A DNA stretch of 35,525 nucleotides. It comes from an uncultured Negativicutes bacterium. GTDB lineage: Bacteria > Bacillota > Negativicutes > Acidaminococcales > Acidaminococcaceae. The notes under the pieces are model-generated. The model was given only the letters and a program-made list of their open reading frames with translations, had not been told where the DNA came from and ran no database searches. Both the position numbers and the translations under genes were made by a program. The stretch is from assembly GCA_947074185.1 (NCBI GenBank), contig CAMTOO010000013.1:1-35525 (forward strand), in the 5' to 3' direction. Shown here piece after piece: positions 1,029 to 27,009 of the stretch. Each line of letters starts with the position of its first letter. The first letter of the stretch is position 1.

Positions 1029-1118
1029 GGAGAGATGACCGAGCGGTTGAAGGTGCACGCCTGGAAAGCGTGTGTGCGTTAACTCGTACCGAGGGTTCGA
1101 ATCCCTCTCTCTCCGCCA
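1029..1118 (+). tRNA. tRNA-Ser (anticodon GGA)
   Basis: A class II tRNA with a long variable arm. The acceptor stem is GGAGAGA (1029-1035) with TCTCTCC (1108-1114), the anticodon loop is CTGGAAA giving anticodon GGA, the T-arm is GAGGG-TTCGAAT-CCCTC (1091-1107), and the discriminator G is followed by an encoded CCA (1116-1118). It reads UCC and UCU serine codons. It lies just upstream of the SRP RNA and may be co-transcribed with it. Confidence 0.97.
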
Positions 1119-1150
1119 TTAAAAAATCCGCGCAAGCGGTTTTGTTTTTC

Positions 1151-1274
1151 TGTAGGGTTGTAAAAGTATGGTCCTGCGCAATGGAAGCCTGTGAACCATG
1201 TCAGGTCCGGAAGGAAGCAGCATTAAGCGGATACTTTTATGTGCCGCAGGGGTGCCTGCTTTTGCAGCCCTACA
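1151..1274 (+). ncRNA. ffs: Signal recognition particle RNA (4.5S/SRP RNA)
   Basis: The strongly conserved domain IV core, GTCAGGTCCGGAAGGAAGCA, begins at about 1200; this is the Ffh-binding hairpin with its GGAA tetraloop. The ends pair: TGTAGGGTTG at 1151-1160 with CAGCCCTACA at 1265-1274, with one G-U pair. The RNA is thus about 124 nt. It scaffolds Ffh for co-translational targeting of membrane and secreted proteins. An SRP RNA directly before dnaX is a common Firmicute arrangement. Exact ends are approximate. An apparent short reading frame across the tRNA and this RNA is not a gene. Confidence 0.93.
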
Positions 1275-1285
1275 GGAAAATAAAT

Positions 1286-24162: not shown

Positions 24163-24642
24163 ATGAAAATCACTATTGCATGTGTAGGAAAAATTAAAGA
24201 AAAGTATTTAGTAAGTGGTATTGAAGAATTCACTAAAAGATTAACTCCTTTTTGTAAATTGGAGGTAGTATCGATTAATGAAGAAAAGATGCCAGATAAT
24301 CCATCTGCAAAAGAAAAAGAGCAGATACTTGCTAAGGAAACAGAAAGATTAGTAGCTGTTATTCCAGACAATTCTTTTGTTATAGCATTAGATGTTGTAG
24401 GGCAGCAACTTTCTTCAACAGAACTTGCGGCAAAGTTTGATGAATTAGCAGTGCAAGGTACTAGCCATATTACTTTTGTAATTGGTGGTGCGTTTGGCTA
24501 TGCAGATGAACTTCGTAAAAAAGCAGATCTTAGATTATCCTTTTCTAAAATGACTTTTACGCATCAGATGATTAGATTATTATTAATCGAACAAATCTAT
24601 CGTGCCTTTAAAATAAGTCGCGGAGAGAAATATCATTGGTAA
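24163..24642 (+). CDS. rlmH: 23S rRNA (pseudouridine1915-N3)-methyltransferase
   Basis: A 159-residue SPOUT-family enzyme that methylates pseudouridine 1915 of 23S rRNA on the assembled ribosome. The knotted S-adenosylmethionine site is seen in FVIGGAFGYADEL and the C-terminal FSKMTFTHQMIRLLLIEQIY with RGEKYHW, the standard RlmH ending. The start codon abuts the htrA stop codon. The walJ-htrA-rlmH order is a familiar Firmicute arrangement. Confidence 0.97.
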   Translation: MKITIACVGKIKEKYLVSGIEEFTKRLTPFCKLEVVSINEEKMPDNPSAKEKEQILAKETERLVAVIPDNSFVIALDVVGQQLSSTELAAKFDELAVQGTSHITFVIGGAFGYADELRKKADLRLSFSKMTFTHQMIRLLLIEQIYRAFKISRGEKYHW

Positions 24643-25928: not shown

Positions 25929-25970
25929 CTTAATCTCCCCTTTTTAAGATAAGTCGCATCTGCGTTAGCA

Positions 25971-26080
25971 ATAAAAAAACGCCTGAGCAGAATTTCTCGC
26001 CCAGACGGTCGGCATTAATTAAAAATATTGTGGTTCACGTGGTTTATTCCACTTTATCCGTCAGTTCCACAATATGTAGT
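25971..26080 (-). promoter_or_regulatory. ZTP (pfl) riboswitch with overlapping intrinsic terminator
   Basis: Read on the minus strand: P1 is ATATTGTGG (26075-26067) with CCACAATAT (26033-26025); within it lie ACTGACGGA and a P2 hairpin GTGG-AATAAA-CCAC (26052-26039). After an AT-rich linker comes GCCGACCGTCTGGGC. GACGG (26062-26058) and CCGTC (26008-26004) can form the pseudoknot, and the CTGGGC box matches the ZTP-aptamer 3' element. GTCTGGGC (26006-25999) can instead pair with GCTCAGGC (25988-25981) followed by TTTTTT, a terminator. Ligand binding would keep the pseudoknot and block termination, so an ON switch is expected. Identified from remembered consensus and pairing, not by covariance search. 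Confidence 0.85.
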
Positions 26081-26091
26081 AGTATATTTTT

Positions 26092-26119
26092 ATTATAACA
26101 ACTAATTGTAGTATGTCAA
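26092..26119 (-). promoter_or_regulatory. Promoter of the ZTP-riboswitch/OFA transcript
   Basis: On the minus strand TTGACA (26119-26114) and TATAAT (26097-26092) are 16 bases apart, both perfect hexamers. Transcription would start near 26085, just before the aptamer. Confidence 0.8.
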
Positions 26120-26146: not shown

Positions 26147-26207
26147 ATTGAAAAGTATTAAAAATGATACACTTTTTATGATAATAAGTCGAAGGTTTGG
26201 TGAAAAA

Positions 26208-26723
26208 ATGAAAAAAATATTTGCGATATTAATGGTTTTAGTGTTTGCATTAAGCGTAGTAGCAGGTTGTGGCAGCGAAAAAGCAGAACAAACGCCTGCA
26301 AAGGTTAGCGCTAGTACGGCAGCAACTAAAAAAGACTCAAATAAAAAGGCTGAGCAGACAGAACGCCAAAATAAATCTGCTAATATTCGTGAAAATGGCG
26401 AATATACAGATAAAGACAGTGTTGCAGCTTATATAAACACTTACAAAAAACTTCCGTCTAACTTTATTACTAAGAAAGAAGCAGAAAAATTAGGTTGGAA
26501 GAAAAATGGTACGTTAGATAAGGTTGCTCCTGGTAAAAGCATTGGTGGAGACCATTTTGGTAACTTTGAAAAACAAGTCCCAAGTAAAGATGGTAGAAAA
26601 TGGAAAGAATGCGATATTAATTATAAAAAAGGTAATAGAGGTAAGTATCGAATAGTATTTTCTAACGATGGTTTAATTTACTATTCTGATGATCACTACA
26701 AGACCTTTAGCAAACTTTATTAG
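26208..26723 (+). CDS. Barnase-family ribonuclease with lipoprotein signal
   Basis: A guanyl-preferring ribonuclease of the barnase (N1/T1) family. Residues about 63-171 track barnase closely (KLPSNFITKKEAEKLGW, VAPGKSIGGDHFGNFE). The catalytic residues are kept: Glu134 (barnase Glu73, in WKE), Arg144 (Arg83), Arg148 (Arg87) and His163 (His102). Unlike secreted barnase, the N-terminus MKKIFAILMVLVFALSVVAGC is a lipoprotein signal with Cys21, followed by a Lys/Gln/Ala/Ser spacer. ATG 26208 gives this signal; an in-frame start at 26148 would put 20 residues in front of it. A barstar gene follows after 16 bases. The mature enzyme would be tethered to a membrane outside the cytoplasm; whether it faces outward is unknown. 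Confidence 0.94.
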   Translation: MKKIFAILMVLVFALSVVAGCGSEKAEQTPAKVSASTAATKKDSNKKAEQTERQNKSANIRENGEYTDKDSVAAYINTYKKLPSNFITKKEAEKLGWKKNGTLDKVAPGKSIGGDHFGNFEKQVPSKDGRKWKECDINYKKGNRGKYRIVFSNDGLIYYSDDHYKTFSKLY

Positions 26724-26739
26724 TAGAGGAGCAATTACT

Positions 26740-27009
26740 ATGGAAAAAATTACATTAGATATAGAAAAAATGAAAACTCCTGAAGCAGCTCATAGATATT
26801 TAAGAGATGCATTAAATTTCCCGAAATATTATGGTGAAAATTTAGATGCCTTAAATGATTGCTTAGGAGATATAGATAAACCACTTTTGGTTAAAATTCC
26901 GAAAGCTCTCAAAAGTAAGAAGTATTTAGGTGAATATGGCGAAAGAATTATTGAAGTATTTCTTTTTGCTGAGGAAGAAAATTTAATGTTAAAGATTGAA
27001 GTTAAATAG
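26740..27009 (+). CDS. Barstar-family ribonuclease inhibitor
   Basis: An 89-residue cytoplasmic inhibitor that plugs the barnase active site. KYYGENLDALNDCLGD is nearly the barstar inhibitory helix (YYGENLDALWDCL), with Asp36 and Asp40 matching barstar Asp35 and Asp39. The length equals that of barstar. AGAGGAG precedes the ATG, which I prefer over an upstream in-frame start at 26689 inside the barnase gene. It protects the producer before export of the nuclease. It is placed directly after its partner, and the MATE gene starts 7 bases later, so all three are probably one transcript. Confidence 0.95.
   Translation: MEKITLDIEKMKTPEAAHRYLRDALNFPKYYGENLDALNDCLGDIDKPLLVKIPKALKSKKYLGEYGERIIEVFLFAEEENLMLKIEVK

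Follow-up and report, generated by a model that had tools for sequence, protein, structure and literature searches.

ZMP/ZTP (pfl) riboswitches are transcriptional ON switches in which two states compete for a single RNA strand (PMC2864571; PMC7337938; PMC7484762). The target genes named in the published texts compared here are purH, fhs, pfl, glyA, folD and those for other enzymes (PMC2864571, PMC7484762, PMC7337938). A carboxylate transporter is absent from these texts (earlier notice of such a target is possible), and a literature search linking ZTP with oxalate or with an antiporter returned nothing on such an association. Major facilitator superfamily (MFS) carriers of the MCT/OFA-like kind have poorly known substrates and names that derive from weak homology. 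Two members of solved structure offer the closest points of reference: SfMCT, the L-lactate transporter of Syntrophobacter, for which the residues of the carboxylate and proton sites have been assigned (PMC6573034), and the oxalate:formate antiporter OxlT, in which Lys355 is essential (PMC10070484). A riboswitch of known ligand before a gene of this type narrows the candidate substrates to those serving one-carbon supply and thus gives a short, testable list.

The locus described here combines these elements. The explanation that we favour, with rather better than even confidence, is that a ZMP/ZTP ON switch governs the single-gene transcript of a monocarboxylate MFS transporter, most likely one that imports formate.

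The transporter leader and its conservation

The host is a gut bacterium related to Phascolarctobacterium, and the window, by which we mean the whole analysed stretch of 35,525 nucleotides, belongs to its 1.57 Mb genome. Reading along the minus strand, the transporter gene and its leader comprise the following features:

26119-26092, minus strand: sigma-70 promoter TTGACA-16 nt-TATAAT with an extended TG, 12 of 12 consensus matches
26078-25992, minus strand: full-length ZMP/ZTP (pfl) riboswitch aptamer, Rfam RF01750
26058-26062, minus strand: pseudoknot 5' strand GACGG, with its CCGUC partner in 76 of 76 leaders
26004-26008, minus strand: pseudoknot 3' strand CCGUC, common to the left arm of the terminator
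26007-25980, minus strand: intrinsic terminator CGTCTGGGC-GAGAAATTCT-GCTCAGGCG, with a T run to about 25973
25935-25940, minus strand: ribosome-binding site GGGGAG, read from the sequence, upstream of the ATG
25928-24699, minus strand: MFS carboxylate transporter gene P0001 (409 aa), placed by profile and phmmer matches on a probable MCT/SfMCT-type branch near OFA

The original prediction had read this leader as a ZTP riboswitch behind a perfect-hexamer promoter, with a 3' element that doubles as the left arm of a terminator, and had proposed a covariance search as a check. That reading holds throughout: RF01750 matches over its whole length (model positions 1-86 of 86) at 64.3 bits (E 2.2e-8), well above the gathering score of 39 bits, the promoter hexamers agree with the consensus at every position, and the terminator left arm CGTCTGGGC is the 3' strand of the aptamer, consisting of the pseudoknot CCGUC and the P3 GGGC. 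The hairpin has 10 pairs, 6 of them G-C, and is followed by the tail TTTTTTTATT; terminator-like sites number 2 in this region as against 0.2 in shuffles. For the isolated leader, the minimum-energy structure contains the terminator and has a folding energy of -28.3 kcal/mol (z -2.8). Since the aptamer lies between promoter and terminator, and the terminator reuses the aptamer 3' strand, the leader has the layout of an ON switch acting on transcription; as it belongs to a class already studied, its ligand and ON direction can almost certainly be taken to be those of the ZMP/ZTP riboswitches. No second RF01750 match was found in the 1.57 Mb genome. The neighbouring gene downstream of the transporter (24163-24642) is convergent, and the transporter gene reads as a single-gene transcription unit.

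Divergent from the riboswitch, at 26148-27009 on the plus strand, are genes for a barnase-type ribonuclease (PF00545) with a lipoprotein-like N terminus and then a barstar-type inhibitor (PF01337), a pair that looks like an exported RNase and its immunity protein. The window also carries a bacterial large SRP RNA (1139-1285, plus strand) with an adjacent tRNA (1029-1115, plus strand), and an autotransporter with an outer-membrane beta-barrel domain (TIGR01414; 9793-12723, plus strand), which fits a diderm Negativicute.

A survey of orthologues had likewise been suggested, with the remark that the lack of a conserved pseudoknot would speak against the riboswitch. Within the class Negativicutes, to which our survey of the pairing extended, the same ZTP leader recurs before nearly all close transporter orthologues, across many GTDB families; within the Acidaminococcaceae it precedes close orthologues in most of the genera that possess one. 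Two of nine orthologues at first scored negative carry a match of 38-39 bits at the expected place, slightly below threshold. The pseudoknot is paired in every one of 76 aligned orthologous aptamers, its second pair being A-U in 68 and G-C in 8, while one other pair is G-U once. Among the 71 distinct rows used for the covariation test, 92.4% of cells pair and both partners vary in 13 of the 22 pairs; the observed covariation was reached by 0 of 500 shuffles, and slid alignments pair at 31-39%. A terminator that uses the shared strand is present in 55 of 65 parseable orthologous leaders. On the protein tree, the ZTP label requires 7 changes, compared with 28.5 in shuffles.

At four loci the transporter is preceded by tandem ZTP aptamers (L094:1777-1976, L151:1216-1426, L154:1228-1431 and L173:432-631); at L173, one aptamer has a GGCGG/CCGCC pseudoknot and the other GACGG/CCGUC. 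Only five cases of tandem ZTP aptamers have been reported, with no transporter described among them (PMC9481103). Two distant transporters, about 38-39% identical (L209 in genome G120, L212 in G147), are likewise preceded by ZTP leaders, and this control was probably acquired independently there. In G026 (L004, L128) the ZTP leader is intact, and the transporter reading frame is interrupted or divided between contigs, owing either to assembly error or to gene decay.

One-carbon supply and the ZTP regulon

In the proposed mechanism, a shortage of 10-formyl-tetrahydrofolate would cause ZMP/ZTP to accumulate and to bind the nascent aptamer, keeping the CCGUC/GGGC strand engaged in P3 and the pseudoknot. 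Because the terminator hairpin needs the strand thus held, it could not form, and the transporter would be made. The carrier would most likely bring formate into the cell, where Fhs, encoded elsewhere in the genome, would join it to tetrahydrofolate and so restore 10-formyl-tetrahydrofolate. The aptamer, its overlap with the terminator, the conservation among orthologues, the presence of fhs and the absence of pfl are features of the sequence itself; comparative genomics suggests formate as the substrate and uptake as the direction. Formate import is our best guess at the function of the transporter, and a moderately probable one.

Other ZTP leaders in the Acidaminococcaceae stand before genes for AICAR formyltransferase (NF005492), fhs, pfl or pflA, and class-wide also before fchA-folD (the fchA match, at 111, is below the curated cut-off of 275) and before the xanthine phosphoribosyltransferase gene xpt. 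In G137 a ZTP-fhs unit and a ZTP-transporter unit lie on the same strand with one opposite-strand gene between them. The shared regulon is purine and formyl-tetrahydrofolate supply. The leaders before xanthine phosphoribosyltransferase (NF006671; L279 and L281, in G112 and G168) extend to purine salvage, and this enzyme is not among the ZTP targets named in the published texts compared here.

The genome of the window (G000) carries fhs and folD, and searches of it for pyruvate formate-lyase (PFL) and for formate channels of the FNT family found neither. Among 59 Acidaminococcaceae genomes, PFL (counted as TIGR01255 above cut-off) occurs in 10, a strong FNT (FocA-like) match in 14 and the ZTP-controlled transporter in 26 (including G015, whose leader falls past the contig end), with zero overlap (Fisher 2e-9, a value not corrected for relatedness). 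Once relatedness is allowed for by means of an rpoB tree, only four independent contrasts are left, and each of them goes the way expected (sign test p 0.125); two of these set PFL against the transporter inside one genus (G006/G007 and G003/G008), and one sets FNT against the transporter inside another. In the PFL-bearing genomes G021 and G042, a related transporter is retained without a ZTP leader, and pfl has the ZTP leader instead. Some Acidaminococcaceae (G034, G039, G041) have none of the three systems, and in the largest genus the FNT proteins fall short of the cut-off of the FocA equivalog model. FolD is present in 55 of the 59 genomes and is thus nearly universal, so that serine can also feed 10-formyl-tetrahydrofolate and formate is not its only source.

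Exclusivity between PFL and the transporter was also tested class-wide and was not found: outside the Acidaminococcaceae the two occur together in 30 of 126 genomes (Fisher p 0.26). The genera g23 and g60, which lie outside the family, show the same swap between PFL and transporter. The original prediction of formate import therefore keeps its link to one-carbon supply and gains comparative support in the Acidaminococcaceae, with a pattern that is not repeated across the class. In the genus that has FNT in place of the transporter, inspection by eye places the FNT gene next to a putative inosine-uridine nucleoside hydrolase gene (L140, L141); a formate channel beside purine salvage would be odd.

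The genome of Phascolarctobacterium faecium carries a transporter orthologue (L099). With formate in faecal cultures, P. faecium went from 8.7% to 12.4% (PMC8921067); succinate raised it more than formate did (PMC8921067), and the formate response is therefore only circumstantial. The wider proposal, for which we regard the case as evenly balanced, is that this MCT-like lineage of the Negativicutes is a dedicated, ZTP-induced formate importer that replaces PFL or FNT as the formate supply, and that gut relatives of Phascolarctobacterium eat the formate of their neighbours. Were formate the substrate, common succinate-using gut bacteria without PFL would have an uptake route for the formyl groups of purines, and the automatic names 'L-lactate transporter' and 'oxalate/formate antiporter' would be corrected.

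Family of the carrier and alternative readings

The carrier had originally been labelled an OFA-family transporter. This label was not borne out by the curated profiles, in which it reaches 184.6 bits against a cut-off of 374.9 for TIGR00890 and 132.5 against 335 for TIGR04259, both of them OFA models, and passes NF049980, 'L-lactate MFS transporter SfMCT', at 387.5 bits against a cut-off of 320. A phmmer search against solved structures gave SfMCT (6g9x, E 2.7e-37) as the best relative, and OxlT (8hpj) at E 3e-20. The position of OxlT Lys355 is Trp351 in all 73 of the 73 ZTP-controlled members examined; the equivalent of OxlT Arg272 is kept as Arg270, and the pocket of two basic residues that marks OFA proteins is not found. 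Together, the failed OFA cut-offs, the change of Lys355 to Trp and the match to SfMCT point to a monocarboxylate-type carrier near OFA and closer to the MCT-type carriers, and do not support membership in OFA itself. Compared with SfMCT, the carboxylate-site residues Tyr119, Asn276 and Arg280 correspond to Tyr115, Asn266 and Arg270 here and are invariant, while the pocket differs by Leu145 to Phe, in the pocket wall, and Leu28 to Val. The SfMCT proton site (His250, Arg256, Asp257, Asp378) is not reproduced, His250 being Val239, Arg256 being Gln245 and the acidic residues being mostly Glu.

This kinship with SfMCT bears on the choice of substrate. With the riboswitch acting as described, the transported acid might be lactate, pyruvate, glycolate or glyoxylate, feeding one-carbon metabolism indirectly, for example via glycine or serine. 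The passing NF049980 score agrees with this, as do the lactate specificity of SfMCT (PMC6573034) and the retention of all of its lactate-site residues (Tyr, Asn, Arg, Tyr, Phe); moreover, the substrates of SfMCT must have three carbons or more, and short acids are not accepted (PMC6573034), which counts against formate. Lactate and pyruvate, however, supply no direct one-carbon unit, which makes control by ZTP hard to explain. Six other proteins were scanned with NF049980 and every one passes the cut-off, among them copies of 39-42% identity that have no ZTP leaders, so the 'L-lactate' label is broad rather than specific. As the SfMCT proton-site His250 is Val in the present carrier, and as the exclusivity with PFL and FNT in the Acidaminococcaceae favours formate, we judge such a substrate unlikely, though it deserves the most weight after formate. 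The conserved carboxylate-binding Tyr, Asn and Arg, with Trp in place of the second basic residue of OxlT, are consistent with formate as the acid carried.

It is improbable that the ZTP leader is a mark of regulon membership passed on by descent and devoid of specific substrate logic, attached to a general acid carrier and moving with it as a promoter-leader unit. The leader does accompany the gene across a wide tree, and in two Acidaminococcus-like genomes the nearest relatives of the gene lie outside the genus, as if the leader had been co-transferred; but the pseudoknot and terminator are intact over a deep divergence, which needs selection, and paralogues in the same genomes (L188, L189) have no leader, indicating that it is not passively retained.

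An oxalate:formate exchanger (oxalate in, formate out), or an acid exporter acting in folate stress, is very improbable despite the resemblance to the OxlT family, as export of formate at low formyl-tetrahydrofolate would deepen the shortage; oxalate:formate exchange was rejected on the missed family cut-offs, the replacement by Trp, in every member, of a lysine essential in OxlT, and the absence of oxalyl-CoA decarboxylase, which was found in 0 of 160 Negativicutes genomes, with E. coli as the positive control.

Comparison with known systems

With the FocA/FNT formate channels, the transporter would share the passage of formate, its proposed role, and in the Acidaminococcaceae the two are mutually exclusive; it belongs to an unrelated protein family and carries a ZTP leader, of which none was seen on FNT genes. 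OxlT (8hpj) has the same MFS fold and an Arg272 that corresponds to Arg270, and differs in having Lys355 where the present carrier has Trp351, in the two family cut-offs that the latter misses, and in that the class surveyed here is without oxalyl-CoA decarboxylase. SfMCT (NF049980, 6g9x) is closer, the carrier passing its cut-off and sharing its carboxylate-binding residues, and is set apart by the changes Leu145 to Phe, Leu28 to Val and His250 to Val and by the ZTP control of the present transporter. The leader agrees with the ZMP/ZTP (pfl) riboswitches of RF01750 in its full-length consensus aptamer, its pseudoknot, the terminator overlapping the 3' strand and the predicted ON direction (Weinberg 2010, PMC2864571; PMC7484762; PMC7337938). 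The riboswitch class is already known; it is the target gene, a carboxylate transporter that has tandem aptamers at four of its loci, that differs from those of the described members and is missing from the published texts compared here.
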